Shown here: positions 36,418 through 53,271 of the stretch, piece by piece
Position numbering within the stretch: position 1 is the stretch's first letter
Layout of the letters: every line of letters starts with the position of its first letter
From: Sphingobacteriaceae bacterium
Lineage (GTDB): Bacteria > Bacillota > Sulfobacillia > Thermaerobacterales > RSA17
Direction: 5' to 3'
DNA length: 60,449 nucleotides
NCBI GenBank assembly: GCA_035303785.1
Contig: DATGRI010000063.1
Span: 1 to 60,449, forward strand
The notes under the pieces: generated by a model
Told to the model about the DNA's origin: nothing
What the model saw: the letters and a program-made list of their open reading frames with translations, nothing else
Databases searched by the model: none
Position numbers and translations under genes: made by a program

Positions 36418-36505
36418 GGAGGGGTGGCCGAGCGGCTTAAGGCGCTGGTCTTGAAAACCAGTGAGGCGCGGGAGCGCCCCGTGGGTTCGAATCCCACCCC
36501 CTCCG
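36418..36505 (+). tRNA. tRNA-Ser (TGA)
   Basis: The 88-base sequence folds as a class II tRNA with acceptor GGAGGGG paired to CCCCTCC, anticodon loop CTTGAAA giving anticodon TGA, and a long variable arm near 36463-36480. The T-arm has GGTTCGAATCC. CCA is not encoded. An extended -10 TGCTACAAT lies at 36396-36404. Confidence 0.95.
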
Positions 36506-36559
36506 CAACCCCTTCCCGCCGCCGGCCTGGAGTCGCGGCAGCCCCGGCCACAGCCGGCC

Positions 36560-36874
36560 TCAGCTGCTGCGGGTGCCGGCCATGATCAAGGCTACACCCA
36601 CCAATATGGTGAACAACTTCCACGGCGAGACCCGCCCGGCCAGGCCCACCACGCCCACGGCCGTCACCGCCAGCAGGATGAGGGGGCCCACCAGGCCCAG
36701 CAGGCCGTTGATGCGCAAAGCCGTGTCCAGGCGGTTGAACTTCAGCATGAGGAGGGCGGCCGTAATTTCGATGGCCGCCGACAGCATCCGGATCCCCGCC
36801 ATTTGCTTGACGAACGTATCGGGTGACACCGTGGATCCGCTCCCCCGGGTGGGCCTGGCGTTGATTCCGTTCAT
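36560..36874 (-). CDS. yqhV: YqhV family (DUF2619) membrane protein
   Basis: The 104-residue product has three hydrophobic segments and the YqhV-like sequence VKQMAGIRMLSAAIEITAALLMLKFN (about residues 22-47) followed by INGLLGLVGPLILLAVTAVG. YqhV is a small membrane protein found in spore formers, in Bacillus encoded near spoIIIA; its role is not established. Here it stands alone between tRNA-Ser genes on the opposite strand. Confidence 0.8.
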   Translation of the reverse strand: MNGINARPTRGSGSTVSPDTFVKQMAGIRMLSAAIEITAALLMLKFNRLDTALRINGLLGLVGPLILLAVTAVGVVGLAGRVSPWKLFTILVGVALIMAGTRSS

Positions 36875-36951
36875 TCCTACGCCGGGGCGGGGGCAATGAG
36901 ACCGCCGGCGCGGCCTTTCCCCGGGGGCCCCCTGCCGCCTCGGTGCCGGAC

Positions 36952-36981
36952 TTGTTTGTCCTTTCGGGCCTGTGCTATCAT
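36952..36981 (+). promoter_or_regulatory. Promoter for tRNA-Ser(GCT) and tRNA-Arg(ACG)
   Basis: TTGTTT (36952-36957), an 18-base spacer and TATCAT (36976-36981), with TGC immediately before the -10. It lies about 45 bases upstream of the tRNA. Confidence 0.6.
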
Positions 36982-37027
36982 TAACGGTACCTGGTCGACG
37001 GCAGGTGGCCGGTCGACCCGTTGCTTT

Positions 37028-37117
37028 GGAGGGGTACCCAAGAGGCTGAAGGGGCGGGTTTGCTAAACCTGTAGGGGGGCGTAAGCCCCCGCGAGGGTTC
37101 GAATCCCTCCCCCTCCG
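37028..37117 (+). tRNA. tRNA-Ser (GCT)
   Basis: This 90-base class II tRNA has acceptor GGAGGGG with CCCCTCC, anticodon stem CGGGT/ACCTG with loop TTGCTAA (anticodon GCT), and a long variable arm. CCA is not encoded. It reads AGC/AGT codons. Confidence 0.95.
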
Positions 37118-37184
37118 CAGCGAGCGGGCCTCACCGGGTCATCGGGGGGCCGTCCCCGGCCTGAGAGGGCCGCTCACAGCCAGG

Positions 37185-37261
37185 GCGCCGTTAGCTCAAT
37201 TGGATAGAGCGTCGGACTACGGATCCGAAGGTTGGGGGTTCGACTCCTCCACGGCGCACCA
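37185..37261 (+). tRNA. tRNA-Arg (ACG)
   Basis: The acceptor GCGCCGT pairs with ACGGCGC, and the anticodon stem TCGGA/TCCGA holds loop CTACGGA (anticodon ACG). The bases after discriminator A (37258) happen to read CCA, so CCA may be encoded. A34 needs deamination to inosine by TadA, which is encoded at 52680. A strong terminator follows. Confidence 0.95.
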
Positions 37262-37721: not shown

Positions 37722-38549
37722 TTACATGCCCAGCAGCTGGCGCAACCGCTTGGCCCGCCGCCGGCTCACGGGAATGCGGGTCTTTTGGGGGTCATTCAAC
37801 ACCAATTCGAAGGCCCCTTTAAAATCAGGGATCAATTCCTTCACTTTCCGCAGGTTGACCAGGTAGCAGCGGTGGGTCCGGTAAAACACCTTGGGGTTCA
37901 GCCGGTCCTCCAGCTCCTTCAAGGTGTAGCGGGAAAGGAGCCGGTCAGTCTCCAGCTTGATGTACACGTAGCCGCCGTCGGACTTGGCGAAGTAGATGTC
38001 GTGCTCATCCACCAAAATGGTCTTGTCGGCCTTGTGCAGGGGGATCTTGCCCAGATAGTCGTCGCTGTTGTTGTTCAGGGGGCTGCCGGCGGCACCGGGC
38101 CCGGCGCCGGCAGCCACGGCCTGGGAGGAGTTGGTCTGCTTCGCCGCCAGCTTCTGGGCCGCCGCCTGTGTCCGCTTGTTCAAAAAGGAGATTTTGGCCA
38201 GCGCCCGGGACAGTTGGGTTTCATCCAGGGGCTTGAGCAAGTAATCCACCGCGTTGACGGTGAAGGCCTCCAGGGCGTGATCCTGGGTGGCCGAGGTGAA
38301 CACGATCCACGGCGGCGCATCGAAAGTCTTTTGGATCTTGCGGGCCAGGTCCAGTCCCGAGGTGCCGGGAATGGAAACATCCAAGAAGAGCAAGGAGTAG
38401 GGCAGAGAATTGAGGAGTTGGAGAGCCTCGGAGGCATTGGTGGCCTCACCCACCACCTCCACCTCCGGGAAGTGGCGCAGCAAGGTGCGGAGGTGCTCTC
38501 GAGCCGGGTACTCGTGGTCGACGATCAGTGTCTTCAATCTTGGCTCCAT
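37722..38549 (-). CDS. LytTR-family response regulator (orphan)
   Basis: The 275-residue product has a receiver domain (about 5-120) with phosphoacceptor Asp57 in LLFLDVSIPG, conserved acidic D11, and K near 105 in DYLLKPLDE. A linker (about 130-165, Ala/Gln/Gly-rich with PLNNNSDD) leads to a LytTR DNA-binding domain with IYFAKSDGGYVYIKLE, RTHRCYLVNLRKVKEL and IPVSRRRAKRL. The start is the ATG at 38547-38549 because GGAGGT lies 7 bases upstream. No histidine kinase is encoded nearby, so its partner is unknown. A long non-coding gap lies upstream. Confidence 0.92.
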   Translation of the reverse strand: MEPRLKTLIVDHEYPAREHLRTLLRHFPEVEVVGEATNASEALQLLNSLPYSLLFLDVSIPGTSGLDLARKIQKTFDAPPWIVFTSATQDHALEAFTVNAVDYLLKPLDETQLSRALAKISFLNKRTQAAAQKLAAKQTNSSQAVAAGAGPGAAGSPLNNNSDDYLGKIPLHKADKTILVDEHDIYFAKSDGGYVYIKLETDRLLSRYTLKELEDRLNPKVFYRTHRCYLVNLRKVKELIPDFKGAFELVLNDPQKTRIPVSRRRAKRLRQLLGM

Positions 38550-39418
38550 CCTCATGACCTCCATGGAACAAGGCCTCTTGCTGAACATTATTCTGGCCTC
38601 CGGCGGATAATCCTTTTTGGTAACCAGTGGGTTGATTGCCGCTTACGCTGGTATTTGGCCATATAAAGCATTGTGCCGACCATTCAGGCTTCGTATAGAA
38701 ACGGTTGCGGCCGGAGCCCAGTGGACGCTGTGGGGCGTCTATCGACCGTTCGCCCATCTCACGCAGGGTATTGCCCGGGTTTTCGCTAAAGGATGGTTGC
38801 CGGCACGCCGCGGCGGCCCTTTTCGAAGGACTGGAAGGGGCCCTGCTGCAATTAATCGTCTCTCTTTGCCGCTTGGCCCACGTTTTTAACCGTTAAAGGG
38901 AAAGCGCTTTACGGAATCAGGCGCTCCCCATTACATTGTGAGTAAGAAAAGGGGCTTGTCTCCAATTTCAGTGCCTGAATCCGAAGGCAGCGGCCCCTCC
39001 CACACTGCGCGTTGACCGATGGCGAGCGGTTGACCACGTCAACACGTGTCGCCGGCATATTTATGTGCCTAGAGCACGTTCAGCCGAGAAAAATTTTATA
39101 GCGGCCCGGCGAGGCCAGGGCCCATTTACGGGCGAAACTCACTCTTGCCATGGCTTGCGCCCAGCAGGCGCGCCGGCGAAGGCAAGGCCTCGGTCACCGG
39201 AGCCGGCCCGGCGCCAGCAGCACAGCCGCATAGCGCCCGACCCAGCCGACATATCGTTATGCCGGGCAATAAGGCCAGCAGGTGGAGCCGCTGACCGAAA
39301 CAACAGAAAGGGGGTGCCTGCCGCAGCTTAAAGGGAAAAGATTTTCATAGTTGTGTTCCGTATCGTCGCGCGGGTTCCCCTGCGGGAATTTACTTGAGGA
39401 GAATGGGGGATTGAATCT
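38550..39418. other. Long non-coding gap before the CoA-transferase operon
   Basis: No convincing gene is seen in these 869 bases. The only open frame (38617-38889, plus strand) has no recognisable protein features or ribosome site. The gap must hold the promoters of the LytTR gene (leftward) and of the CoA-transferase operon (rightward). It contains a palindrome AAAGCGCTTT at 38901-38910 and the operator-like repeats at 39011-39043. No clear -35/-10 pair was found for the operon. Confidence 0.5.
39011..39043. promoter_or_regulatory. Operator-like GTTGAC repeats upstream of the CoA-transferase operon
   Basis: GTTGAC at 39011-39016 is repeated 18 bases later at 39029-39034, and the latter forms a perfect inverted repeat with GTCAAC at 39038-39043 across a 3-base spacer. 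This looks like a regulator site about 375 bases upstream of the first gene. The regulator is not known. Confidence 0.4.
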
Positions 39419-40837
39419 ATGGCAATGACCGAAAAAAACCTCGGTACACATCCGGTCCCGTGGCCTGCGGTCCCGATTCCCACTCGCGACGAGGTCTACG
39501 CCGGCCTCAGCGACGCGGCCAAAGAGTATCCTATCTGGCTTGAAGAGAATCTCCACCAGAAGTACAACTTCGATAAGCCCGAGAACCTGTCCCGAATTCG
39601 CGTGCTGGACCTGACCACCGGCATGATGATCGGTCACTGGGCTTCTTCCCAGCTGGCTGAGATGGGCGCCGACGTCATTCAGGTGGAGCCCGTCGGGGGC
39701 GATCCCGCGCGGAAGCTCACGCCCTTCGGCCGCGAAGAGTACATGTTCACCGACAGCGAGCGGGGCGAAAAGGTAGGCGGGCTCTTCCTCCACGAGATGC
39801 GCAACAAGCGGTCCATCACCCTCAACCTGGAAACCGAGCGGGGCCGCGAGATCCTGCGCAACCTTGCCCGTCACGTGGATGTCATCATTGAGAACGCGCC
39901 CCCCGGCGACTTCGATGCCAAGGGCATCGGCTATCGTCAGCTTTCCCAGATCAACCCGCGTCTCGTTTATGCCTGGGTCGGCCAGCGGGGCCAGTGGGGT
40001 CCCCTCAAGGATAAGCCCGGCATGCTCGAGCCTGTTGGGCAGGCTGCCTGCGGCTTCGTCCACGGCACCGGTCAGCCCAAGGAATTCGGCGGCCGGCCCG
40101 TACGCTCCGCCATGTGGATGGCCGACTACGTCGGCGGCACCGTGGCGGCCATCGGCATTCTGACCGCCCTCTTCTACCGCGACAAGGTCTCCGGCCGTGG
40201 CCAGTTCATCGAAGCCACCGCCGCCGAGTCCATCATCCGGATTCTGGACTACACCTGGGTCTGGTACGGGATGGACGGCAGCATCCGGCCCCGCTACGGC
40301 AACTGGGACTTGGCCATCAACATCTACTCCGTAAACCCGGCCAAGGACGGCTACATGATGATCGGTGGCGGCCACGACCGTCTGTGGTACCGGATCTGGG
40401 GCACCGTCGGCAAGGAGCGCCCCGAGGTCGAGCAACTGGTCGTGGAAGACCCCAAGCTGAAGGAAGTTACCGACCGCTTGGACCACGCCGCCAACGTGAA
40501 GGCGTCCACGCTGCTCAGCGAGTGGCTTAAGGACAAGACCCGCGCCGAGGCGGAAGTAGAGCTTCTGAAGGAACAGGTGGCGTCGGGTGGTGTAACCACC
40601 ATCGACGAGGTGGCCGAATACCCCCACTTCAAGTATCGCGGCTTCCTTGACCTGTTCAAGGACCGGCTCTACGGCGAGATCCTGTACGGCACCACGCCCT
40701 GCCTGGAGAGCTATGCTCCCAGCCGGCTCAAGTGGATCGGGCGTCCCGTCGGGTACGACAATGAGGAAGTCTACCTGTACCTCCTGGGTCTGAACGCCCA
40801 AGACCTGAAGCAACTGCAAGCAGAGGGGGTTATCTGA
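39419..40837 (+). CDS. Class III CoA-transferase (CaiB/BaiF family), subunit 1
   Basis: This 472-residue protein belongs to the CaiB/BaiF (class III) family, which moves CoA between carboxylic acids. Family regions are IRVLDLTTGMMIGHWASSQL (about 60-79), ADVIQVEPVGGDPAR, KRSITLNLETERGREI, DVIIENAPPGDF and the later AMWMADYVGGTVAAIGILTA. It has about 60 extra N-terminal residues. At the usual catalytic Asp site the sequence reads PGMLEPVGQA with Glu204 in place of Asp, so this subunit may not be the catalytic one. It overlaps subunit 2 by 1 base. Codon use favours CGC over the CGG common in neighbours. The acid used cannot be named from sequence. Confidence 0.88.
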   Translation: MAMTEKNLGTHPVPWPAVPIPTRDEVYAGLSDAAKEYPIWLEENLHQKYNFDKPENLSRIRVLDLTTGMMIGHWASSQLAEMGADVIQVEPVGGDPARKLTPFGREEYMFTDSERGEKVGGLFLHEMRNKRSITLNLETERGREILRNLARHVDVIIENAPPGDFDAKGIGYRQLSQINPRLVYAWVGQRGQWGPLKDKPGMLEPVGQAACGFVHGTGQPKEFGGRPVRSAMWMADYVGGTVAAIGILTALFYRDKVSGRGQFIEATAAESIIRILDYTWVWYGMDGSIRPRYGNWDLAINIYSVNPAKDGYMMIGGGHDRLWYRIWGTVGKERPEVEQLVVEDPKLKEVTDRLDHAANVKASTLLSEWLKDKTRAEAEVELLKEQVASGGVTTIDEVAEYPHFKYRGFLDLFKDRLYGEILYGTTPCLESYAPSRLKWIGRPVGYDNEEVYLYLLGLNAQDLKQLQAEGVI

Positions 40838-42201
40838 TGGCGACTACCGAAAAGGACCTGATGTCCCTGTCCTTCGAGGAGTATTGCCGCGAGGTCTTCG
40901 ATCCCGAAAAGGTCTTCGAGAAGCCCGAACCTCTCAAGGGTTACCGGGTCATCGACTGCACCCAGTACATCCTGGGTCCCAGCTGCGGCAGCTACCTGGC
41001 TGAGTTGGGCGCCGAGGTCATCAAGTTCGAGATGCCGCGCCGCGGCGAGCCCATGCGGCACACCACGCCGTGGAACGAGCGCTCCCTATACCCCCTGTCG
41101 CGCTGGATGCCCGACCGGGGCACGGGCTTCGGCTTCGTCGGCGCCAACTTCAACAAGTACCACGTCACCTTGGACTTCCATAAGGAAGAGGCCAAGGAGA
41201 TCTTCCGCCGCTTCGCCACCAAGGCGGACATCATGATCGAGAACTACCGGCCCGGCACCTTCGACCGCTGGGGCATCGGTCCCCGCCAGATGATGTCCCA
41301 CAACCCCAACCTGATCTATTGCTGGATGGGCGGCTTCGGCGGTTGGGGCCCCGGTCGTGTGCGGGCGTCCTACGACATTCTGGGTCAGGCCCAGGGCGGT
41401 GCCTTCGGCATCACCGGCCACCCCGAGTTCCTGGGCGGCACCCCCTCCAAGCACACCATCTGGCTCGCCGACTACTGGGGAGGCATGATGGGTGTAATGA
41501 ACATCCTGGCTGCTCTGTATCGCCGGGAGACCGAGGGCGGCGGCGGCACCTTCATCGAAATCTCCCAGGTGCACGGCGTTGCCCGGATGCTGGAGTACTC
41601 CCTGCCCCTCTACAAGGCCTTCGGCGTCGTCCGCCAGCGCTGGGGCAACTGGGATACCCAGCTGTGCGTCCACGGCATCGTCCAGTGCGGTCTGTCCTCC
41701 TACCCCGATTCGGAGAACCCGCAGGAGAACGAGGAAGGCTACATCCTCATCTCCGCCCACACCGATGAGGATTGGGAGAAGCTCTGCGCTGTGATGAACC
41801 GTCCCGATCTGCGCGACAAGTACCCGACCCATGCCGACCGGGTCAAGGCCGAAAGCCAGATCGAGATCTATACCGAGATCGAGAAGTGGACCAAGGACAA
41901 GACCAAGGAAGACGTCCAGGCCATTCTCGACGAGGCCGGCATCGTCAACCAGCCCGTCTGGAACTCCAAGGAAGTGGCGGAGCATCCCCACTACCACATG
42001 CGGGGCACCATCCGCTGGATGCAGGATCCCGTCTTCGGCGAAATGCTGGTCCAGGGTCCGCCCCTGCTGATGTCCGAGACCCCGCCGCGGGTCAAGTGGC
42101 TGCTGAAGCCCGTCGGCATGGACAACGAGTCGGTCTACCAGAACTTGCTGGGCTACAGCCCTGACCAGATCGCTCAGTGGGAGGAGGAGGGGGTTATTTA
42201 A
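40837..42201 (+). CDS. Class III CoA-transferase (CaiB/BaiF family), subunit 2
   Basis: This 454-residue family member has YRVIDCTQYILGPSCGSYLAEL (about 36-57), AEVIKFEMPRRGEPMR, VTLDFHKEEAKEIFRRFA and IMIENYRPGTFDRWGIG. The predicted catalytic Asp180 lies in ASYDILGQAQGGAFG, as in active family members, while subunit 1 has Glu. A two-subunit layout with one catalytic partner is known for some aromatic-acid CoA-transferases such as benzylsuccinate CoA-transferase. The gene starts on the last base of subunit 1's stop with AGGGGG 7 bases upstream. Its stop codon lies in the loop of a strong hairpin. Confidence 0.9.
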   Translation: MATTEKDLMSLSFEEYCREVFDPEKVFEKPEPLKGYRVIDCTQYILGPSCGSYLAELGAEVIKFEMPRRGEPMRHTTPWNERSLYPLSRWMPDRGTGFGFVGANFNKYHVTLDFHKEEAKEIFRRFATKADIMIENYRPGTFDRWGIGPRQMMSHNPNLIYCWMGGFGGWGPGRVRASYDILGQAQGGAFGITGHPEFLGGTPSKHTIWLADYWGGMMGVMNILAALYRRETEGGGGTFIEISQVHGVARMLEYSLPLYKAFGVVRQRWGNWDTQLCVHGIVQCGLSSYPDSENPQENEEGYILISAHTDEDWEKLCAVMNRPDLRDKYPTHADRVKAESQIEIYTEIEKWTKDKTKEDVQAILDEAGIVNQPVWNSKEVAEHPHYHMRGTIRWMQDPVFGEMLVQGPPLLMSETPPRVKWLLKPVGMDNESVYQNLLGYSPDQIAQWEEEGVI

Positions 42202-42211
42202 TACCCCCTCC
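42186..42211 (+). terminator. Hairpin spanning the end of CoA-transferase subunit 2
   Basis: Arms 42186-42194 and 42203-42211 form a perfect 9-bp stem with an A+T-only 8-base loop that contains the stop codon. Without a T-run it more likely stabilises or processes the message before the downstream small genes. Confidence 0.5.
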
Positions 42212-42286
42212 CATTTCCCACCTTGCCGGCCAGGATTGCATTTGCGACTAACCGGCCAGGTCCGGGTAAAGGGGGATTTTGAATAA

Positions 42287-42664
42287 ATGCTCGAGTGCCC
42301 TAAGTGCAAGACGATCAACTACCTTGATCCGTATGCATTCTGGAACTTCGAGGGTAACACCAAGTGCGCCGGGTGCGATACCGTGTTCTACATCAAGAAG
42401 CGCAACGGCCAGTTGGTGGACGGTCCGACGGAAACTCAAGGTGAAGTAGACCTGTTGCCGGGCTTCGCTGAAACGCCCGACTTCCAGCCCATCGAGGGCC
42501 CTGGCAAGACTCGTCCCGGCCCCCGGGCTCGGAAGGACTTCTACGGCAAGCCCACTCCCATCACCCGCAACATTCGCGGCAACCTGATCAGCGGGCGGCC
42601 GCTGCGGCCTGATGAGCTGATCGGCAGCAAGCCCCGCTTCATCGTCACGGGTGAAGGGGAGTAG
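42287..42664 (+). CDS. Small zinc-ribbon protein of the CoA-transferase operon
   Basis: The 125-residue product starts MLECPKCKTINYLDPYAFWN and has two Cys pairs, C4-C7 and C27-C30 (KCAGCDTVFYI), a classic zinc-ribbon or rubredoxin-like knuckle set. The remainder is Pro/Gly-rich and hydrophilic with no recognised domain. It follows the CoA-transferase genes on the same strand by 85 bases. It could be a structural partner or a CoA-transferase accessory protein, but no family was recognised. Confidence 0.7.
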   Translation: MLECPKCKTINYLDPYAFWNFEGNTKCAGCDTVFYIKKRNGQLVDGPTETQGEVDLLPGFAETPDFQPIEGPGKTRPGPRARKDFYGKPTPITRNIRGNLISGRPLRPDELIGSKPRFIVTGEGE

Positions 42665-42770
42665 CCAGCAACTCACCACTCGGCATACCGATGGGTAGAG
42701 GGCCCAGGCGGCTCCGATGAGACCGCCGCGGCTAGGACTCGTCAGGGCCCAAGAGAGGGAGGTATTATCT

Positions 42771-43112
42771 GTGGTCACTCGCAACAGAGACAAGATGGAG
42801 CAACGCTTCGGCGGGCTTGGTGATGGAGCAGAAACCCTCGAAATCAAAGGGCAGACCTACACCCTCTGGGACCTGATGAACAGCCTGGGTCTCGTGACCG
42901 AAGACGTCCAACCCGTCGATGCGTTCCACCTGGCGGATGAAGGCGTATATGCCGTGCGCTACTTCGATGGCCAGGACCGGGCAGTGATCGCCTTCGAGTT
43001 CGACGAGGACTTCCGCTACCTGGGGGAAATCCGAGTGCACCTGGCCGAGTACATGGGCGAGGACGAGTACTTCGAGTTCCCCTGGAACGTCGGGTGTCCG
43101 TGGACGATCTGA
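42771..43112 (+). CDS. Uncharacterised small acidic protein
   Basis: The 113-residue product starts at GTG 42771, fixed by AGGGAGGT 7 bases upstream. It is acidic and aromatic-rich (DAFHLADEGVYAVRYFDGQD, then VHLAEYMGEDEYFEFPWNVG) and ends with GCPWTI, with one Cys near the C terminus. No domain was recognised and no signal peptide or membrane segment is seen. Strong ribosome site and codon use like the flanking genes support it as real. Confidence 0.7.
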   Translation: MVTRNRDKMEQRFGGLGDGAETLEIKGQTYTLWDLMNSLGLVTEDVQPVDAFHLADEGVYAVRYFDGQDRAVIAFEFDEDFRYLGEIRVHLAEYMGEDEYFEFPWNVGCPWTI

Positions 43113-43149
43113 ATCTGCCCGGTACCTTTGAATAAGGAGGAATATTTGC

Positions 43150-43350
43150 ATGGCAGCACAAGAAAATGTCCAGTGCCTGAGCTGTGCCCACTTCGCACCC
43201 GCCTTGGACCCGGTCGTGCAAAAGGCCTTCTTGGGCTATTGCAAGAAGCGCCAGTGGCCGTTCCATGAAATGGTCCCCTTGGGCGGCATGGTTTGGATGA
43301 AGGAGCATGAATGCCCGCTCTATGAGCAGGCCCAAGAAGAGACCGACTGA
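43150..43350 (+). CDS. Small four-cysteine protein (possible Fe-S or zinc protein)
   Basis: The 66-residue product has C9-x2-C12, C31 and C55 (NVQCLSCAHFAP, GYCKKRQWPF, HECPLYEQ). This spacing resembles the small Cys-rich subunits (for example BssB/BssC-type) that carry a [4Fe-4S] cluster beside some anaerobic enzymes, but no glycyl-radical enzyme is encoded nearby, so that is only an analogy. AAGGAGG precedes the ATG by about 8 bases. No other match was recognised. Confidence 0.7.
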   Translation: MAAQENVQCLSCAHFAPALDPVVQKAFLGYCKKRQWPFHEMVPLGGMVWMKEHECPLYEQAQEETD

Positions 43351-43389
43351 TTTCCCTGGGGCAATCCCAGTAATCGAGGAAGAGGAGAG

Positions 43390-43422
43390 AGCAGGGTTTC
43401 CCGGCTGGGCCGGGGCCCTGCT
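43390..43422 (+). terminator. Hairpin upstream of the acyl-CoA ligase gene
   Basis: AGCAGGG (43390-43396) pairs with CCCTGCT (43416-43422), and inner CCCGGC/GCCGGG bases extend the stem. TTCT follows, so a partial terminator or processing site is possible. Confidence 0.5.
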
Positions 43423-43469
43423 TCTCCCTGCCCAAGGCAGCCTGAGACGCAGTTAAGGAGGCTGAAGGG

Positions 43470-45152
43470 ATGGCAGGTCTACCTATTCCCGAAAGTTATC
43501 TGCCGCCTCGCGAGTTATGGCCCGACAAGCTCTACACCCTGCCTGAGTACCAAAACATCCCCGACAAGCTGAACGTCACGGCGGAGATATTGGACCGCAA
43601 TCTAGAGCTGGGGCGGGGCGACAGGGTCGCCATCTACGTGGACGACAAGCGGATCACCTACAACGAACTGGTGGAGCAGGTGAACCGCATCGGCAGCGCC
43701 CTCCAGGGCATCGGGGTGGAGTCCCCCGACCGGGTCATGATCCGCTGCCCCAACATTCCCGAGGCAGTGATTGCCAACTTCGCCATCTTGAAGATCGGCG
43801 GCGTGAGCGTGCCCACGTCGCCCATGCTGGCGGAGAAGGAAGTCGCCTATGTGGCCAACAACTGCGAGGCCAAGGTCATCTTCGTCTTCGCTCCCTTGCT
43901 GGAGCCCGTGGCCAAGGCCCGGCCCAACTTCCAGACGGTAACCCATGTGGTGGTCATTGGCGGCAACCCCGATGAAATCCGGAGCCAGGGCTTCATTCCT
44001 TGGACCGACTTCCTCAATCAAGGCTCCGACAAGCTGGAGCCCGTCCTGCGGAACCGCCTGGATGTAGCCCTCCTGCTGTACACCTCCGGCACCACGGGCA
44101 TGCCCAAGGGCACCGTCAAGTTCGTGGAAGATCCCATTCTGGTGGCCGACGGCTACGGCAAGTATTGCTGGCGCATCACCGAGGACGACGTGGTGGGCGG
44201 TCCCGCACCCCTGGCCTTCGCGGCCGGCTATGCCACCGCGGGCATCATCCCCTACCGCTACGGCGCCGGCGCCTCGCTGATCGCACGGTTCACGCCGGAG
44301 CAGATGTTTGAGAACATCCAGAACCACCGTATGACCATCACCTCCATCCTGCCCACGGCCTACCGCCAGATGCTGCGCATCCCCGATGCTGAGAAGAAGT
44401 ACGACCTCAGCTCCCTGCGCATGTGCACCGGCGGCGGCGAGGCCCTCGGCGAGGAGACCTTCAAGGCCTGGAAGGACCGCTTCGGCCTGGAGATCTACGA
44501 GGGCCTGGGCACCACGGAGATGATGTACGTCTTCATCACCAACGCGGTGAACCTGAAGGCCAAGGGCGGCTCCATGGGCCAGGTGGTCCCCGGCTACGAA
44601 GCCCGGGTCGTGGACGACGAGGGCAACGAAGTGCCGCCCAACACCGAAGGGTATCTGCAGGCCCGTGGGCCGACCGGCACCCTGTACTGGCGTCCCTACG
44701 AGGACGACAACCGCCTGCTGGAAGAGCAGAAGCAAGCGGTGCGCAACGGCTGGTGCCAGACCGGCGACGTGGTCACCATGGACGAGGACGGCTACTTCTG
44801 GTTCGTCTCCCGGGCCAGCGAGATGATCAAGACCTCCGGCTACCGGGTCGGTCCGGAAGAAATCGAAGAAGCCCTCATGCAGCATCCTGCCGTCCTTGAC
44901 TGCGGTGTCATCGGCGTGCCCGATGAACTGCGGGGCGAAGTTGTCAAGGCCTACGTCACGCTCAAGGAAGGCTTCACCTGGAGCGACGAACTGGCCGAGG
45001 AGATCCTGGAGTTCCTCAAGGGCCGCATCGCCATCTACAAGCTGCCCAGGGCCTTCGAGGTGATTGAGCAAATCCCGCGGACGCCCACGGGCAAGATCTT
45101 GCGGCGCATCCTGCGGGATCGGGAAAAGGCCAAGCAAGAGGCTTCGGACTGA
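43470..45152 (+). CDS. AMP-forming acyl-CoA ligase (benzoate-CoA ligase-like)
   Basis: The 560-residue product activates a carboxylic acid with ATP and CoA through an acyl-AMP. Motifs in order are LLYTSGTTGMPKG (P-loop, about 205-217), GAGASLIARFTPEQMFENI, the A5 motif EGLGTTEMMYVF, GWCQTGDVVTMDEDGYFWFVSR and the final PRTPTGKILRRILRD with the catalytic Lys. The layout is closest to benzoate- and aminobenzoate-type ligases, but the substrate pocket cannot be judged by eye. AAGGAGG lies 8 bases before the ATG. It shares a strand and likely a transcript with the CoA-transferase genes. Confidence 0.9.
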   Translation: MAGLPIPESYLPPRELWPDKLYTLPEYQNIPDKLNVTAEILDRNLELGRGDRVAIYVDDKRITYNELVEQVNRIGSALQGIGVESPDRVMIRCPNIPEAVIANFAILKIGGVSVPTSPMLAEKEVAYVANNCEAKVIFVFAPLLEPVAKARPNFQTVTHVVVIGGNPDEIRSQGFIPWTDFLNQGSDKLEPVLRNRLDVALLLYTSGTTGMPKGTVKFVEDPILVADGYGKYCWRITEDDVVGGPAPLAFAAGYATAGIIPYRYGAGASLIARFTPEQMFENIQNHRMTITSILPTAYRQMLRIPDAEKKYDLSSLRMCTGGGEALGEETFKAWKDRFGLEIYEGLGTTEMMYVFITNAVNLKAKGGSMGQVVPGYEARVVDDEGNEVPPNTEGYLQARGPTGTLYWRPYEDDNRLLEEQKQAVRNGWCQTGDVVTMDEDGYFWFVSRASEMIKTSGYRVGPEEIEEALMQHPAVLDCGVIGVPDELRGEVVKAYVTLKEGFTWSDELAEEILEFLKGRIAIYKLPRAFEVIEQIPRTPTGKILRRILRDREKAKQEASD

Positions 45153-45228
45153 TGCCCTTGCGGCGAGCCTCGACTGCACCTAGGGAGCAGTTCGGGCAGC
45201 CTGTCCTGCTGGAATAAGGATGGGTTCT

Positions 45229-45268
45229 GGGGAGGCGGGTCCCGTGGCTGGGAACGCCTCCCCTTTCT
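45229..45268 (+). terminator. Strong hairpin with T-rich tail after the acyl-CoA ligase gene
   Basis: Arms 45229-45237 and 45255-45263 form a 9-bp GC-rich stem with an inner GTCCC/GGGAA pairing, followed by TTTCT. It may end most ligase transcripts, leaving the next small gene at lower level. Confidence 0.65.
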
Positions 45269-45315
45269 ATTGGCGGAACGGTTCCATCGGCAAACTAAGA
45301 CGGGGAGGTATAGCC

Positions 45316-45549
45316 ATGAGCCAGGAACAAGGGGCGGGAGCCACCGATCCCAGGCTGGAGGAAGCCATTCGCAAGGCCGACTCGGCCCTTATTTTGCTGG
45401 AAGGCTTGGTCAACTATCTGCGGGCCATCAACATCGTGGACGTGGATGACTTCAACGACTTCCTGCAGGAGCACGAGGTTACCAGCGGGCCCATGTTCCA
45501 AAACCGGCCCCGGCCCTCGGACATCATGGGGCCCCAGGGCGGCCAGTAA
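45316..45549 (+). CDS. Uncharacterised small protein at the end of the CoA-transferase operon
   Basis: The product (77 residues) starts at ATG 45316, set by GGGGAGGT 8 bases upstream. The longer open frame upstream crosses a terminator-like hairpin and is not used. It has one predicted helical region, LEEAIRKADSALILLEGLVNY, then an acidic segment DVDDFNDFLQEHE and a Pro-rich tail. No family was recognised. It lies between two strong hairpins. Confidence 0.6.
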   Translation: MSQEQGAGATDPRLEEAIRKADSALILLEGLVNYLRAINIVDVDDFNDFLQEHEVTSGPMFQNRPRPSDIMGPQGGQ

Positions 45550-45636: not shown

Positions 45637-45672
45637 AAGAAGGACTCCGCCCCACCGGGCGGAGTCCTTCTT
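45637..45672. terminator. Bidirectional terminator between the operon and the OFA transporter gene
   Basis: An 11-bp perfect GC-rich stem (45642-45652 with 45657-45667) is extended by AAGAA/TTCTT on the outside, giving A-rich DNA on one side and T-rich DNA on the other. It serves converging transcription from the operon (plus) and the transporter (minus). Confidence 0.9.
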
Positions 45673-45722: not shown

Positions 45723-46985
45723 CTACGCGTCGGCTGCAGCCGCCGCTGGTGTTTCTACCGCTCTTGGTGCCTTGGTGATCAAGGCCAAGCCGGTGGCAAC
45801 CAGCAGCAGAATGGCGGACACGATGTAGGCCCGCTCGTAGCCGCCGGTAGCGTCGATGATGCGGCCCGCCATCAGGGGACCGAAGAAACCGCCGACGCCC
45901 CAGGCGGTGAAGACGAGACCGTAGTTGACGCCGGCGCTCTTGAGACCGAACCAGTCCCAAGTGGTGGCCGGGAACAGAGCCAGCAACGCACCGTAGGCGG
46001 CACCGGTGATGATGGCGCCCAGGGTGAGGGTCGCAGCGCTCCGGTAGGAGGCGTAGGCGAACATGTTGATGGCCTGGATGACGAAGACCAGGATCATGGT
46101 GGCGGTACGACCGATCTTATCGGACAGGACACCGGTAATGATACGGCCGCCGGCGTTACCGATGGCCAGCAGAGCGGCAAAGAGGAAGCCGGTCTCCAGC
46201 CCGCCCTGAATCTGGGCGATCCTGGCCACGTGACCGATCATCATCAAGCCGGCCGACGCCGAGAAGGCGTACATGAGCCACAGGGACCAGAACTGCCAGG
46301 TCCCCAACATCTCGCCGGGGGTGAAATCCCGCTTGGCGGCGGGAGCAGGAGCAGGCTTGCCGGCAGTAGCCTTAGGCGCCGGCGGCTCGCCACCGACAGG
46401 CTCCCAGCCGGCGGGCGGCTCCTTCACGATGAAGGAAAGGACGACCAAGGTGATGGTGAAGAAGGCGCCCAGATAGTAGAAGGCATTGGCCACACCGAAG
46501 TTCCGAATGAGGTAGTTGGCCAAGGGCGAGACGTATACTGCGGCCAAGCCGTAACCCGACACGACCAGACCTGTGATCAAGCCCTTCATGTGGGGCTTGA
46601 ACCACTTAACGGCCGAGGGGGTCGGCGCGGCGTAGCCGAAGCCCATGGCGGCACCGCCCAGCACACCGAAGCCGATGACCAGGGCGGGGACGCTCAAGGA
46701 CATGCCTGCGATGATGAACCCAACACCGATGAGGATGCCGGAAACAAAGATGACGAGACGGGGCCCTGCACGGTCCAGCAGAATACCTGCGGGAACCATG
46801 AAGAGGGCGAAGAGGATAACCGCCACACTGTAGGGCAGAGACGTCTGGGTCGCGGTATAGCCCAAGTCGTTCTGCAGACCTTGGGCGAAAACGCTCCAGG
46901 CGTACAACACGCCCAAGCACAGGTTGACGGCCGTACCTGCCATGACGACCAGCCACGCCTGGCCGCTACCTTGCTGTTGAGCCAA
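45723..46985 (-). CDS. MFS transporter, OFA (oxalate/formate antiporter) type
   Basis: This 420-residue protein has 12 hydrophobic segments. The start GTAVNLCLGVLYAWSVFAQGLQNDLGYT and the RAGPRLVIFVSGILIGVGF and YGLAAVYVSPLANYLI regions fit the OFA family of the major facilitator superfamily, whose best-known member exchanges oxalate for formate; others move different small organic acids. A Pro/Ala-rich cytoplasmic loop lies near residues 200-225. TTG at 46985 is the start, set by GGGAGGTG 7 bases away. It converges with the CoA-transferase operon. Confidence 0.88.
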   Translation of the reverse strand: MAQQQGSGQAWLVVMAGTAVNLCLGVLYAWSVFAQGLQNDLGYTATQTSLPYSVAVILFALFMVPAGILLDRAGPRLVIFVSGILIGVGFIIAGMSLSVPALVIGFGVLGGAAMGFGYAAPTPSAVKWFKPHMKGLITGLVVSGYGLAAVYVSPLANYLIRNFGVANAFYYLGAFFTITLVVLSFIVKEPPAGWEPVGGEPPAPKATAGKPAPAPAAKRDFTPGEMLGTWQFWSLWLMYAFSASAGLMMIGHVARIAQIQGGLETGFLFAALLAIGNAGGRIITGVLSDKIGRTATMILVFVIQAINMFAYASYRSAATLTLGAIITGAAYGALLALFPATTWDWFGLKSAGVNYGLVFTAWGVGGFFGPLMAGRIIDATGGYERAYIVSAILLLVATGLALITKAPRAVETPAAAAADA

Positions 46986-47090: not shown

Positions 47091-47815
47091 AATTCTGATA
47101 TTAAGGAGTTTTGCCGCCGGAGGGAATTCCTTTCCGGCAAACGGTAGAAAGAGGCCCTTTAGCGGTACAATTTTTATCTTCTCGGGGGCACCGGGCGCAG
47201 CAGCCAATGCAGACAGGGAATCCCAGAATCCAACGGCCGTGCCCGCCTGAAATCGTAGCCCAAGGCTGTCAGGCCCTCGAATCACCACGAGCGGCCTCGG
47301 GGGCCGCCGGAGATCCGTTTCCCGGCTTCGCTTCCCGGATCAACCGGTTGCCCCATTGGCCTGGCCGGCCGTGCAAGCACAGGAACTGTGCTAATTTCCC
47401 TGTTGCCGGGCCTTTCAACGGACCCCCAAGCCCAGATAGGAGGCTTATTTCAGTGGCATCGGCGCCGGATCGGGGAAAATTCCCCGGATTTAGCCCAGCC
47501 CGTGGGCTTAACCTGCTGTATTGCCGGTCAGTCGGTGGAAATAAGCCACTTTCCTGAGTTTAGCCTGCATGCCTGGCCGGCCCACACCCTTTCCACAGAG
47601 GCCGGAGAAGCCCGGAGCCATGCCCATACCGGGCCGAGGCTGCCGGCAAAGGAATGCAAAGGGTTTCGAGGCCCGAACTACTCTATTCTTGAAATATTAG
47701 ATGGCGGAGGGAGCTGGGTGCAACCTTAATGGCAACCGCTAGAATCCTCCATTGAACCTAAAGAGGCCTGTTCATACCATTGAAGGGGAAACCTTTGCCG
47801 CTCACGAAATATGGC

Positions 47816-47845
47816 TTTACCCTCGGATGGGCCGGGCCATATAAT
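47816..47845 (+). promoter_or_regulatory. Likely promoter of the second LIV transporter operon
   Basis: TTTACC (47816-47821), an 18-base spacer and perfect TATAAT (47840-47845), giving a leader of about 100 bases before the TTG at 47955. Confidence 0.6.
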
Positions 47846-47954
47846 GCCGGCCAGAAAATTGGATTTCTACTACTTATATAGGCGTCATGCCGGAAGCGGC
47901 CTCCGAGCCCGGCGGCCCACCGGCCGAACGGATCTTTGTTGGAGGTGTGGTGAG

Positions 47955-49190
47955 TTGCGACGGGTAGGCACGAAGCGTTCTCGGTTTTTATCGAGGTTTT
48001 GGCTGTTGGCCTTGGTCATGGCGGCGGCCATTGTCCTGGCTGCCTGCGGTGGCGGCGCAGGCCAGCAGCAAGGCGATGACGACGAAACCGGGGCTGCAGA
48101 CGGAGAGCCCATCAAGATCGGCGTGTTGAGCCCCTTCAGCGGTCCTTTTGCCAGCGTGGGCAAGCTGAAGGTGGACATTTTCAACCTGCTGCTGGCGGAT
48201 GTGAACGAGGCCGGCGGCATCAACGGCAGGCCGGTGACCTTCGTGGCCGGCGACAGCCAGGGGACGGCCAACGAAGCCCGGAACCAGGCCCTGCGCCTCA
48301 TCGACCAGGAGCAGGTGGACCTGCTGGTGGGCGCCTATCTAAGCGAAGAAACGGTAGAGATCATGGAAGTGGCGGCCGACCGGGGCATACCCTTGATCAT
48401 CCCCACTTCGGCCTCCAATGAAGTTAATGCCCGCATCGAGCAGGACCCGGAGCGGTACCGGCACGTCTTCCGGGTAGGCTACAACATCACCCAGTGGGCC
48501 CAGATGATGGGCGACTTCATCCTCAGCCGGGATGTGAGCAGCTACGGGTACGTGGGGGCCAACATCCGCTGGAATCAAGAGTTCGCCGAGGAGTTGGCCA
48601 GGTACCTGGCGGAGCACAACGTGCCCCAGGCCTTTGAGGATGGGTTCTATTCCCCCAGCCAGCCGGTCTTTGACCCCATCATCCAGCAGATCCAGGACAC
48701 CCAGCCCGGCATCGTGGTTTTGGGCGACCCGGGCCAAAATGCCGTGGAACTGGCGAAGCGCATCCGGCAGGCCGGCTTGGAAGTGCCCATCTTCTCCGTG
48801 GGCGGCCAGATGGGTGATGAGCGGGCCGCAGCCACCATCCAGCCCCTGGAGGAAGTGTACTTCCAGGCGGCTTCCTGGATGGGCGACGACGGCCCGACGG
48901 ACGAATACTTCCAGCGGTTCAAGGAGGAGTACGGGTACCCCTTGGTGGGTTACACCGACGTATTGACCCACGACAGCATCATGATTGCCGTGGAGGCCAT
49001 GCGCCGGGTGGATGAGGTGACCCCCGATGCCCTGGCGGAGGCCTTGGCGGAGGGTGAATTCCAGGGGCTGGCCGGGACGTATACCTTCGGGCCCGATCAC
49101 CAGCCGCCCTGGGAGGCCGGTTCGGACCTGAGCGGTGTGGTGGTCCAGTGGCTGGCTCCCGAAACTAGTCAAAGGGTTTGGCCCAGGTAA
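47955..49190 (+). CDS. LIV-type ABC transporter substrate-binding lipoprotein (second system)
   Basis: The 412-residue product starts at TTG 47955, fixed by GGAGGTG 7 bases upstream. It has an Arg-rich signal peptide, then a lipobox (VLAAC, Cys31) and an acidic Gly/Gln linker. The mature part begins PIKIGVLSPFSGPFASVGKL and has the type I periplasmic binding fold, with VGAYLSEETVEIMEVAADRGIPLI. It is only distantly similar by eye to the livK product at 13751. Possible ligands are amino acids or carboxylates; the adjacent CoA-activation operon makes an organic acid worth testing. Confidence 0.92.
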   Translation: MRRVGTKRSRFLSRFWLLALVMAAAIVLAACGGGAGQQQGDDDETGAADGEPIKIGVLSPFSGPFASVGKLKVDIFNLLLADVNEAGGINGRPVTFVAGDSQGTANEARNQALRLIDQEQVDLLVGAYLSEETVEIMEVAADRGIPLIIPTSASNEVNARIEQDPERYRHVFRVGYNITQWAQMMGDFILSRDVSSYGYVGANIRWNQEFAEELARYLAEHNVPQAFEDGFYSPSQPVFDPIIQQIQDTQPGIVVLGDPGQNAVELAKRIRQAGLEVPIFSVGGQMGDERAAATIQPLEEVYFQAASWMGDDGPTDEYFQRFKEEYGYPLVGYTDVLTHDSIMIAVEAMRRVDEVTPDALAEALAEGEFQGLAGTYTFGPDHQPPWEAGSDLSGVVVQWLAPETSQRVWPR

Positions 49191-49197
49191 TACGTAA

Positions 49198-50061
49198 ATG
49201 CTGGTTTTTGTCCAAGCCCTGGTCAGCGGGCTGTCCCAAGGTGCCATCTACGCAGTGGTAGCGTCGGGCTTGGCCTTGATCCTTGGCAACCTGAAAGTGG
49301 TCAACCTGGCCCACGGCTCCTTCTTCACCCTGGGCGCCTACCTGACCTATACCTTGTACACGACTTGGGGCTGGTCACCGTTGTATTCGTGGCTGCCGGT
49401 AGGCGGGGTGGTGTTCTTCGTAGCCCTCCTCGCCTACCGGCTGGTCATCGGCCCGCTGCGCCACCGCCGGACGACGGTGGCCGTGGCCACCCTGGGCCTG
49501 GGTATGTTGATGGAAAGCATCTTCATTATTATTTGGAGCCCGCTCCACTACTACTTGCGGACCACGCTGCCCGTCATCAGGGTGGGGGGCGTCCGGATCA
49601 ACCTGCAGGAGGCCTACGTGGGCTTGATAGCCCTGCTGCTCATGGGTCTCCTGTTTGTCTTTCTCAAGACCCGCAGCGGGCGCGCCCTCCGCTTTGCGGC
49701 CCACGACGCCGAAGTGGCCGAGACCGTCGGCATCGACGTGGGGCGGCTGCACATGCTGACCTTCGGCGGCGCCGGGGCCCTGGCCGCCGTGGCCGGCAGC
49801 CTGATGGCTCCCTTGCTGACCATCCACAGCACCATGGGCCGCATGCCCATGGTCATCGGCCTGGCGGTGGTCATCGTGGGCGGCATGGGCAACATCCACG
49901 GCGCCTTGGTGGCGGGCTTGGCGTTGGGGATCATCAGTTCCCTGGTAGGGTTCTACTTGAGCCCGGCCCTGGTTTACATCTTGTCCTTGGCCATCATCGT
50001 CATCGCCCTGGCCCTGCGGCCCACGGGCCTGTACGGCGCCCTGCTGCGGCGGGACCGTTGA
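49198..50061 (+). CDS. LIV-type ABC transporter permease, LivH-like (second system)
   Basis: The 287-residue permease has eight hydrophobic segments with GLSQGAIYAVVASGLALILG and VVNLAHGSFFTLGAYLTY near the N terminus, and the coupling loop TRSGRALRFAAHDAEVAETVG. It is 7 bases from the binding-protein gene, with no strong ribosome site, so its translation may depend on the upstream gene. Confidence 0.93.
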   Translation: MLVFVQALVSGLSQGAIYAVVASGLALILGNLKVVNLAHGSFFTLGAYLTYTLYTTWGWSPLYSWLPVGGVVFFVALLAYRLVIGPLRHRRTTVAVATLGLGMLMESIFIIIWSPLHYYLRTTLPVIRVGGVRINLQEAYVGLIALLLMGLLFVFLKTRSGRALRFAAHDAEVAETVGIDVGRLHMLTFGGAGALAAVAGSLMAPLLTIHSTMGRMPMVIGLAVVIVGGMGNIHGALVAGLALGIISSLVGFYLSPALVYILSLAIIVIALALRPTGLYGALLRRDR

Positions 50062-50127
50062 GGCGCCGGGGCCGCCCCGAAAAGGGATCCGGCCCGTGAG
50101 GCCGCCGGTGTAGGGGAGGCCGGCATA

Positions 50128-51066
50128 ATGGAGAGTACGACATACCCCTTGTTCAGAACGGGGAGGCGCATCGCCGGCACGGCGGCGGCAGTGCTGCTGG
50201 CCATCGGCATCTTCCTGGTGCCCCTGTTCGTGACCAACCAGTTTTGGCTCAACGCCCTGATCATGGCCAACCTGACGGCGGCCTTCGTAGCCACGTGGGA
50301 TTTCCTGGCGGGGCCGGTGGGCCAGTTGTCGGGCGGTCAGGCCTTGTTCCTGGGCGGGGCGGGCTACGTGGCCGCCCTGGCGGGGCTGGCGGGCGTCAAT
50401 CCCTGGCTGGGCATGCTCCTGGGGCTGGTGTTTGCCGCCATCGCCGGCTTGGTGGCGGGGCTCCTCAGCCTGCGGGTGTCGGGCCCCTTCCTGATCTTGG
50501 CCACCTTGGCCCTGGCGGAAATTGCCCACGAATCGGTCCTGGCCATAGGGTTCCTCAGCGAGCAGGGCTATGCCATCGGCGGCGAAGGGGGCATTCCCCT
50601 GCTGCAGATTTTGCCTCGCAGCGCCGAAGGGTTTTTCACCACGGCCTATTTCCTCTCGGCCCTGCTGCTGGTGGGCCTGGTGGCCGGCCTGTACCTGATG
50701 GCCAGGTCCCGGCTGGGATTGCAGTTGAGGGCGGCGGGCCGGGACATATTGTCGGCGGAAGCCGCAGGCATCAATACGACCCTGTACCGCTTGCTGGGCT
50801 TTGCCGTAGCGGCCGGCGCCGCCGGCCTGGTGGGCGTCTTTTGGGGCCAGTACGTAGGCAGGGTGACGCCGTCGCTGCTGGCGCTGCAGTTCAGCTTCAG
50901 CGCCATGGTGCTGGCCGTCATCGGCGGCCGGGGAAGCATCATCGGCCCGGCCATGGTAGCCTATTTGAGCACAGCCGTTTTCTCGTGGCTTTGGGTGGAT
51001 CCCCATTACCAGCAGTTGGTCTACGCCCTGGCCCTGCTGGTGCTGATTCGCTTGCGGTCCCTGTAG
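50128..51066 (+). CDS. LIV-type ABC transporter permease, LivM-like (second system)
   Basis: The 312-residue permease has about nine hydrophobic segments, GPVGQLSGGQALFLGGAGYVAAL near 65-87 (the LivM start motif) and the coupling loop SRLGLQLRAAGRDILSAEAAG. GGGGAGG lies 8 bases before the ATG. It follows the LivH-like gene after 66 bases. Confidence 0.92.
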   Translation: MESTTYPLFRTGRRIAGTAAAVLLAIGIFLVPLFVTNQFWLNALIMANLTAAFVATWDFLAGPVGQLSGGQALFLGGAGYVAALAGLAGVNPWLGMLLGLVFAAIAGLVAGLLSLRVSGPFLILATLALAEIAHESVLAIGFLSEQGYAIGGEGGIPLLQILPRSAEGFFTTAYFLSALLLVGLVAGLYLMARSRLGLQLRAAGRDILSAEAAGINTTLYRLLGFAVAAGAAGLVGVFWGQYVGRVTPSLLALQFSFSAMVLAVIGGRGSIIGPAMVAYLSTAVFSWLWVDPHYQQLVYALALLVLIRLRSL

Positions 51067-51091
51067 GATCGCGGAAAGGCGGTTCCTGAAC

Positions 51092-51814
51092 ATGAGCGAC
51101 CAACGGGAATACCTGTTGCGGGCGGAAAAGGTGTCGATTCACTTCGGCACCCATTTCGCCCTGGAGGACATCAGCTTCGGCGTGAAGCCCGGCGAGGTCC
51201 TGGGCATCACCGGGCCCAACGGCTCGGGGAAGACGACCTTGATCAACATCATCAGCGGGGTTCTCCATCCCGAAAGCGGCGAGGTCTATTTCAGGGGCCG
51301 GCGCATCACCAAAATGAAGCCCCACCAGCGGGTGAGGATGGGGATGGCCCGCACCTTCCAGCATGCCCGGAACATCCCGGAGATGAGCGCCTACGAAAAC
51401 GTGCTCCTGGCGGCCCTTAACAGCCGGGCGGTCAAGGGCTCCCACCGGGACCTGGAGGGGAAGATCGCCGGGGTCCTGGAGAAGACCCGCCTGGTGAAGC
51501 AGCGGGACATCCCGGCAGGGCGCCTGTCGTCCGGGTGCCTGCGACGCCTGGAGATCGCCAGGGCTCTGGCCACCGACCCGGAGCTGCTCATCCTGGATGA
51601 GCCCTTCGCCGCCCTGAGCGCCCGGGAGGAGAAGGATCTGCTGGCTCTCCTGGAAGGCTTGAAGCAAGAAGGCCTTACCATGATCATCGTGTCCCACCGA
51701 TTCGACATCTTGGCCGCCCTGGCGGACCGGGTGCTGTTCCTGAAGGACGGCCGGGAGGCCTTCAGCGGGCCGGCCCAGGACACCTTGGCCTTTGTCGAGG
51801 GACAGCGAACCTGA
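51092..51814 (+). CDS. LIV-type ABC transporter ATP-binding protein, LivG-like, altered signature
   Basis: The 240-residue ATPase has Walker A GPNGSGKTT at 41-49, the Q-loop region and TFQHARNIPEMSAYENV typical of LivG, Walker B ELLILDEPFAAL and the H-loop SHRFDI. The ABC signature reads LSSGC (145-149) instead of LSGGQ, which could change ATP turnover. The second Gly and the Gln are both altered. It starts 25 bases after the permease gene. Confidence 0.92.
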   Translation: MSDQREYLLRAEKVSIHFGTHFALEDISFGVKPGEVLGITGPNGSGKTTLINIISGVLHPESGEVYFRGRRITKMKPHQRVRMGMARTFQHARNIPEMSAYENVLLAALNSRAVKGSHRDLEGKIAGVLEKTRLVKQRDIPAGRLSSGCLRRLEIARALATDPELLILDEPFAALSAREEKDLLALLEGLKQEGLTMIIVSHRFDILAALADRVLFLKDGREAFSGPAQDTLAFVEGQRT

Positions 51815-51816
51815 CC

Positions 51817-52548
51817 ATGGCAGAACCGCTGCTGGTTGTGGAAGACTTATCGGTCCATTTCCGGGCCGTCAAAGCCTTGTCCCACGTGAGCATCACCGTG
51901 GAGGCAGGGCAGTGCGCGGTGCTCATCGGGCCCAACGGCTCGGGCAAGAGCACGCTGATTAAGGCCGTAGCCGGCCTGGTGCGGATCAAGGCGGGGACCA
52001 TCACCTTGGCCGGCCGGCGCATGGAGTTCCTGCCGCCCCACCAGCGGGCCCGGCTGGGGGTGGCCTGGGCACCCGACCGGGGCCGGGTGGCCACCGACAT
52101 GACGGTGCGGGACAACCTGCTGGCGGGCGCCTACTTGTGCACCGACCGGGCGGAGGTAAGGCGCCGCCTGGAAAACACCTTCACCATGTTTCCCCGCCTG
52201 CAAGAACTGCAGCACCGGCTGGCCGGCGATCTCAGCGGCGGCCAGCGGCAGCTGCTGGTTATGGCCAGGGCCTTGATGGCCAAGCCCCGCCTGCTCCTGG
52301 TGGACGAGCCCTTCACCAACTTGAGCCCCGAGGCGACCGACGAAATGATTTCCATCATTAATGAAGTAAAAAGTCGGGGCGTGGGCCTGCTGCTGGCGGA
52401 GCACCAACTGGACGCCGTCCTGCAGGTGGCCGACAAGATCTACGCCTTGGGCGCCGGGCAGCTGGTTTGGGAGGGCACCCGCGACCAGTTCATCCAAGAA
52501 AAGCCCATGGGATTGATTTACTTCGACCGGGCCGCCTCGGACCTTTGA
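51817..52548 (+). CDS. LIV-type ABC transporter ATP-binding protein, LivF-like (second system)
   Basis: The 243-residue ATPase has Walker A GPNGSGKST, a normal signature DLSGGQRQLLVMARAL, Walker B LLLVDEPFTNLSP and a LAEHQLDAV H-loop. With the LivG-like partner it would form a heterodimeric ATPase in which one of the two composite sites has the altered signature. It starts 2 bases after that gene. The promoter of the next tRNA overlaps its end. Confidence 0.93.
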   Translation: MAEPLLVVEDLSVHFRAVKALSHVSITVEAGQCAVLIGPNGSGKSTLIKAVAGLVRIKAGTITLAGRRMEFLPPHQRARLGVAWAPDRGRVATDMTVRDNLLAGAYLCTDRAEVRRRLENTFTMFPRLQELQHRLAGDLSGGQRQLLVMARALMAKPRLLLVDEPFTNLSPEATDEMISIINEVKSRGVGLLLAEHQLDAVLQVADKIYALGAGQLVWEGTRDQFIQEKPMGLIYFDRAASDL

Positions 52549-52675: not shown

Positions 52676-52679
52676 CACG

Positions 52680-53144: not shown

Positions 53145-53151
53145 CGTAACT

Positions 53152-53240: not shown

Positions 53241-53271
53241 CAAGAGGCAAAGGTTTCACCGACATGCCGAT

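Follow-up and report, generated by a model that had tools for sequence, protein, structure and literature searches.

Several described systems share features with a gene module that we found in contig DATGRI010000063.1, a stretch of 60,449 nucleotides from a Bacillota genome (the window, meaning the whole stretch analysed), in which two class III (CaiB/BaiF) coenzyme A (CoA) transferase genes, here called alpha and beta, are followed by genes for small proteins and an acyl-CoA ligase. In carnitine metabolism, the class III CoA-transferase CaiB is primed by CaiC, a ligase that forms adenosine monophosphate (AMP), and is served by a dedicated transporter, features that the module shares; however, CaiB is encoded by a single gene, the hydratase CaiD acts on the acyl-CoA, and no zinc-ribbon or four-cysteine partners are present. 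BbsEF, the benzylsuccinate CoA-transferase of the anaerobic toluene pathway, is also a two-gene, two-subunit class III enzyme, but it needs no ligase, lacks such partners and is only distantly similar. In the thioacid cassette, the two-part type III CoA-transferase PtmU4, which has a conserved catalytic aspartate (Asp) in its second domain, is encoded beside the acyl-CoA synthetase PtmA3, as one fused protein that uses sulfur-carrier proteins in biosynthetic clusters (PMC6006322). The nearest published gene context, compared by description, comes from anaerobic benzene degraders, whose 'Magic' cluster places two type III CoA-transferases side by side and also encodes an AMP-forming synthetase and proteins with poor annotation. 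This cluster has a flavoprotein/Fe-S trimer and MaoC hydratases that the module lacks, whereas the two cysteine-rich proteins of the module are unreported there (PMC13101534). Literature searches returned no description of the present gene combination or of a matching pathway, in agreement with the initial annotation of this DNA, which had not recognised the set as a described pathway. The module is a real, uncharacterised and conserved variant of class III CoA-transferase systems, and on balance we lean towards the reading that it is a transferable unit for the import and CoA activation of a monocarboxylic acid, in which the ligase would prime the system and the transferase would recycle CoA.

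Gene order and conservation of the core

The module consists of seven consecutive genes, whose lengths are given in amino acids (aa) and whose cysteines are abbreviated as Cys:

39419..40837, + strand: alpha, class III (CaiB/BaiF) CoA-transferase subunit, 472 aa (PF02515)
40837..42201, + strand: beta, class III CoA-transferase subunit, 454 aa (PF02515), its start codon overlapping the alpha stop
42287..42664, + strand: ZnR125, zinc-ribbon protein with Cys pairs CPKC...CAGC, core member of no known family
42771..43112, + strand: acid113, acidic protein of 113 aa with a GTG start, no family
43150..43350, + strand: cys66, four-Cys protein of 66 aa (CxxC...GxC...C), core member with four invariant Cys
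43470..45152, + strand: AMP-forming acyl-CoA ligase of the benzoate/2-aminobenzoate type, 560 aa (PF00501)
45316..45549, + strand: p77, protein of 77 aa and final gene of the unit, with an ATG start and a good ribosome site

All of these reading frames exist as initially annotated. A scan with alpha, which covered 84,980 named genomes, revealed six loci in metagenome-assembled genomes (MAGs) of Bacillota, Terriglobia, two 'Deltaproteobacteria', Campylobacterales and Hippea (L005-L010), with alpha orthologues of 60-75% identity. Whole-genome searches detected close beta relatives in 2 of 61 near relatives, the host genome included. In sampled genomes, alpha was found in 1 of 398 from the phylum of the window, 5 of 396 from that of the Terriglobia MAG and 29 of 297 from that of the Deltaproteobacteria MAG. 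In profile searches of the retrieved DNA, with relatives down to ~47-50% identity, the core of alpha, beta, the zinc-ribbon protein and the four-Cys protein was intact in every locus uncut by a contig end (25 of 25), in records of Bacillota, Acidobacteriota, 'Deltaproteobacteria' and Campylobacterales, and the gene association is therefore not due to chance. ZnR125 adjoins beta in all loci, and cys66 directly follows it in 24 of the 25, the exception being the window, where acid113 is inserted between them. The initial annotation had tied the small proteins to the CoA genes and had considered that they might prove unrelated to them in other genomes. The tie holds for ZnR125 and cys66, which are obligatory, and partly for acid113, which is common but not always adjacent, but not for p77, which was not seen elsewhere.

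In the close relatives (group I), the ligase gene comes next after the core in all 13 loci whose DNA reaches that far, and in most of these relatives the core is accompanied by an aryl-type acyl-CoA ligase, by the acidic protein and by a transporter of the OFA or LIV type. In two group II loci (L047 and L048), the ligase lies ~3 kb away on the opposite strand, and in group III other genes take the place of these additions. A thioredoxin-like small protein usually precedes the ligase in group I and was not found in the host genome; its Cys is not conserved (L007:13469-13843; L006:7135-7785), in Acidobacteriota and L045 it forms a single fusion with the four-Cys protein, and in two group II genomes it is encoded away from the module. 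In group III (L052:5265-7283 and L055-L057), the core is joined by unknown proteins of ~95 and ~145 aa and a metallo-beta-lactamase (MBL)/TPR protein and, in L052, by a sigma-54 regulator. In Deltaproteobacteria of group I, acid113 and alpha are separated by the gene for an uncharacterised protein of ~470 aa that matches nothing in Pfam (L007:7942-9357, L041, L043, L045 and L009); searches of other hosts did not find it, and in L007 genes for ATP synthase and NADH dehydrogenase are nearby.

The CoA-transferase pair and its small partners

Both transferases contain the CoA_transf_3 domain (PF02515; 5e-85 for alpha and 3e-94 for beta in Pfam), whose fold spans most of each protein, and alpha carries an N-terminal extension of ~50 residues. 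They are nevertheless not equivalent. When the catalytic column was located by alignment to solved structures of the class III family, Asp was present in all 27 beta sequences (D180 in the window), whereas the alpha residue was D in 20 sequences, E in five (including E204 of the window) and Y in four, so that the catalytic Asp of class III enzymes is invariant in beta only. This pattern argues for one heterodimeric enzyme with a single catalytic subunit and a variable partner. In addition, alpha and beta fall into two separate clades whose branching orders largely agree, which indicates that the pair has been inherited together. The best reading of the sequences is that alpha and beta would pair as the subunits of BbsEF or the two domains of PtmU4 do, with one of them as the catalytic subunit. 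Both subunits match the BbsEF chains of PDB entry 9fn0, although no toluene pathway genes lie near the module, and, unlike PtmU4, the two parts are separate genes in all loci and are accompanied by Cys-rich partners and importers. Homologues of alpha on plasmids reach at most ~34% identity among the best-ranked records.

None of the four small proteins matched a curated family above threshold in Pfam and a further curated-family search, and for ZnR125 searches of Pfam, NCBIfam and the PDB returned nothing above threshold. ZnR125 was aligned across 21 sequences, and the four Cys of cys66 are invariant in 15; PDB profile searches with these two proteins gave chance matches only. The AlphaFold model of acid113 is confident (predicted local distance difference test, pLDDT, 90) and that of ZnR125 moderate (pLDDT 85, predicted template modelling score 0.58), and fold searches with both models returned no significant PDB match. 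Homologues of acid113 occur near the module in Acidobacteriota and in group I Deltaproteobacteria; 14 group I loci have one at a distance of at most ~3 kb, but the two Campylobacterales/Hippea loci do not, and an acid113 scan of genome contigs gave no match. A paralogue with 65% identity lies in the host genome beside SbcD/SbcC-like genes (G000:C61:16928-17269), so that members of the acid113 family also occur outside the module. For p77, no homologues were found in the related loci. It ends in GGQ and was considered as a sulfur-carrier protein, a candidate that was rejected since by eye it appears helical rather than beta-grasp; given this appearance and the lack of homologues, the ending is treated as a coincidence. 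A four-Cys, HiPIP-like role of cys66, comparable to that of the small subunits of fumarate-adding enzymes, would be a speculative candidate.

Because no enzyme for the step after activation was identified, the complex itself may carry out that step. Alpha, beta, ZnR125 and cys66 might then be a new multi-subunit, metal-containing enzyme that both activates the acid and performs the next chemical step, in a CoA-dependent pathway that has gone unrecognised in several phyla, which we regard as unlikely. A related and similarly improbable explanation is that the transferase and its metal proteins act beyond CoA exchange on the ligase product, either by thioacid sulfur transfer, as in PtmA3 with PtmU4, or by CoA-dependent cleavage, as in DddD. 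The pairing of a ligase with a two-part type III CoA-transferase carrying its Asp in the second half is indeed shared, and two obligatory Cys-rich partners together with the lack of a separate next-step enzyme in the island would suit such chemistry. On the other hand, the known thioacid group has been reported from Actinobacteria, Beta- and Gammaproteobacteria only and has fused domains (PMC6006322), the linked importers suggest uptake rather than biosynthesis, and no sulfur-carrier protein, activating enzyme or protease was seen in the module, the whole genome not having been searched for a sulfur carrier.

Ligase, transporters and candidate substrates

The preferred reading, import and CoA activation of a monocarboxylic acid, draws on the ligase and the linked transporters. 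The ligase has an AMP-binding domain (PF00501, 2e-76 in Pfam), and its top PDB match is the anthranilate-CoA ligase 4wv3. By motif and closest structural relative, it falls near the benzoate-CoA/2-aminobenzoate-CoA ligases, and it retains the EGLGTTEM segment of aryl ligases, although the module ligases form a family of their own, with at most ~42% identity to named plasmid relatives. Its score against the TIGR02262 benz_CoA_lig model is 346.6 bits, slightly under the cut-off of 375. One of these relatives, 39% identical, lies inside a kynA/kynU (tryptophan-kynurenine) operon with a LIV importer, and another, 41% identical, is adjacent to two UbiD genes, an enoyl-CoA hydratase-related gene and an MBL gene.

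Activation of acetate or another very short acid, as in acetate-oxidising anaerobes, could be imagined since acetate oxidisers are among the relatives of some hosts, the ligase resembles the acetate-CoA ligase PRK04319 (361 bits) and a histone-deacetylase-fold gene adjoins the ligase in L007. This explanation is very unlikely and was rejected on the ligase motif: the module ligases show GLG(T/A/G)TE (EGLGTTEMM in the window) in place of the WWMTE of the acetyl-CoA synthetase structure 9g79, and hence lack the Trp that closes the acyl pocket in acetyl-CoA synthetases (WWxTE). Furthermore, Desulfurella employs a class I acetate CoA-transferase, and for Hippea maritima and H. jasoniae no CoA-transferase other than the counterpart of this enzyme has been reported (PMC9768450).

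The following features around the operon bear on transport and regulation:

37722..38588, - strand: LytTR response regulator (PF04397 and PF00072), divergent from the operon and its candidate regulator
45637..45672, no strand assigned: perfect 16-bp inverted repeat with a 4-nt loop, a likely bidirectional terminator between p77 and the OFA gene
45723..46985, - strand: OFA-family MFS transporter of the monocarboxylate (L-lactate, SfMCT) type (NF049980)
47811..52548, + strand: LIV-type ABC importer comprising a binding protein, LivH, LivM, LivG and LivF

The hairpin closes the operon, and beyond it lie the convergent OFA gene and then the full LIV set, two transporters that the initial annotation had also placed there. 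The OFA carrier scores 436.9 bits against the lactate-type SfMCT model NF049980 (curated cut-off 320), which predicts a monocarboxylate carrier, compared with 171 bits against the oxalate/formate model (cut-off 335); SfMCT binds L-lactate and the aromatic monocarboxylate thiosalicylate. OFA genes also lie upstream of alpha in four acidobacterial loci (L006, L113, L114 and L116). In L005, from a related member of Bacillota, a LIV importer lies directly upstream of alpha and is most similar to the adjacent set of the window (41-47% identity, versus 26-39% to the second LIV set of the window), and next to it is a LytTR regulator 41% identical to that of the window. The second LIV-type ABC importer, at 10308-15028 on the - strand, is distantly related. 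Taken together, the ligase type, the contexts of the plasmid relatives and the OFA and LIV/LytTR linkage favour the uptake of a monocarboxylic acid that may be aromatic, and the substrate is probably an aromatic acid or another one of more than acetate size.

An OFA transporter beside class III CoA-transferases, with Frc/YfdW among the structural relatives, might also suggest oxalate/formate metabolism of the formyl-CoA:oxalate CoA-transferase type with the carrier as antiporter. This possibility is largely refuted and extremely improbable: the carrier passes the lactate-type model and fails the oxalate/formate one, Frc models score far below cut-off (189 bits versus 504), and, in single-family searches, which alone served to judge the downstream catabolism of the host, oxalyl-CoA decarboxylase was above cut-off in none of the 11 module genomes, so the oxalyl-CoA decarboxylase route was rejected.

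It is also conceivable, although quite unlikely, that the module activates benzoate, phthalate or a phenyl acid for a benzoyl-CoA-type aromatic pathway. The ligase type and the likeness to the transferases and AMP ligase of the 'Magic' cluster agree with this, as do the ring-opening hydrolase Oah, above cut-off in both Campylobacterales/Hippea genomes (G447 and G449), and the 13 UbiD-family decarboxylase matches, an unusually high number, in the 2.9-Mb Bacillota genome that carries L005 (G444). However, these are the only two of the 11 module genomes with Oah, the host (G000) not being one of them, and the anaerobic benzoyl-CoA pathway was thus rejected as a general partner. UbiD was found neither in the host genome nor in G448, and phthaloyl-CoA decarboxylation was rejected since the host lacks it; moreover, no counterparts of the 'Magic' flavoprotein and MaoC genes were seen in the neighbourhood of the module. 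Together with the crotonase results given below, these searches indicate that no standard route tested is common to the module hosts.

In the import-and-activation scheme that we favour, the OFA carrier and/or the LIV importer would take up the monocarboxylic acid, and the AMP-forming ligase would spend ATP to make the first acyl-CoA. The alpha-beta enzyme, via Asp180 of beta, would then pass CoA from the product (or from succinyl- or acetyl-CoA) to each new acid molecule, while alpha, non-catalytic or half-active itself, would give the acid site its shape. ZnR125 and cys66 may be permanent metal-binding subunits or assembly factors of the heterodimer, acid113 may be accessory, and the acyl-CoA-transforming enzyme would be encoded outside the operon. 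The initial annotation had suggested from the ligase and the transferase that one acid is activated while a product or partner acid exchanges CoA; CoA activation is retained, but a ligase acting on a different acid is not needed because priming and CoA recycling, as in carnitine metabolism, fit equally well. Several observations weigh against this scheme. The host has only three enoyl-CoA hydratase (crotonase-family) genes, of which one is part of a menaquinone cluster, and no UbiD, and the island holds no dedicated acyl-CoA-transforming enzyme. The aryl preference of the ligase is predicted from motifs and neighbouring genes only, transporter types vary by lineage (OFA, LIV and NMT1-type), and group III loci have no adjacent ligase, which is therefore not obligatory.

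Genomic setting and significance

The host, whose genome is 1.64 Mb and 98% complete, is a small bacterium that probably prefers heat; its closest order-mates include nearly closed genomes of 1-3 contigs and 2.8-3.0 Mb. The module is flanked by chromosomal housekeeping genes recognised by eye (dnaA, dnaN, gyrAB, serS, dnaX and recR). The accessory region that extends from the LytTR regulator to the LIV importer, near dnaA-gyrAB, is bounded by a tRNA-Ser/Ser/Arg cluster (36418-37261) and by tRNA-Arg/tRNA-Ser genes (52602-54385), the island limits being the cluster end at 37261 and the tRNA-Arg at 52602; such a location between tRNA clusters is a typical integration position. Strong ribosome sites and CGC-rich codons had been proposed for the module. 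Purine-rich sites do precede most starts, and for acid113 such a site is present at GTG 42771 and absent at ATG 42717, but the codon bias is mild (CGC makes up 47% of the arginine codons of the module and 37% of those of nearby housekeeping genes, at an equal third-position GC content of 0.845 versus 0.849), and high expression of the module is weakly supported.

The occurrence of the core across distant phyla, together with two obligatory small proteins that lie outside the family databases, is the mark of an enzyme system, one that annotation pipelines reduce to a 'CoA transferase' and hypothetical proteins. Given the gene set and the residues seen in alpha and beta, the questions of substrate and partners can both be tested directly. 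Their answers would explain what makes a zinc ribbon and a four-Cys partner necessary to a class III CoA-transferase, and with the identity of the substrate a new pathway that degrades or modifies an acid would be defined in thermophilic and soil bacteria.

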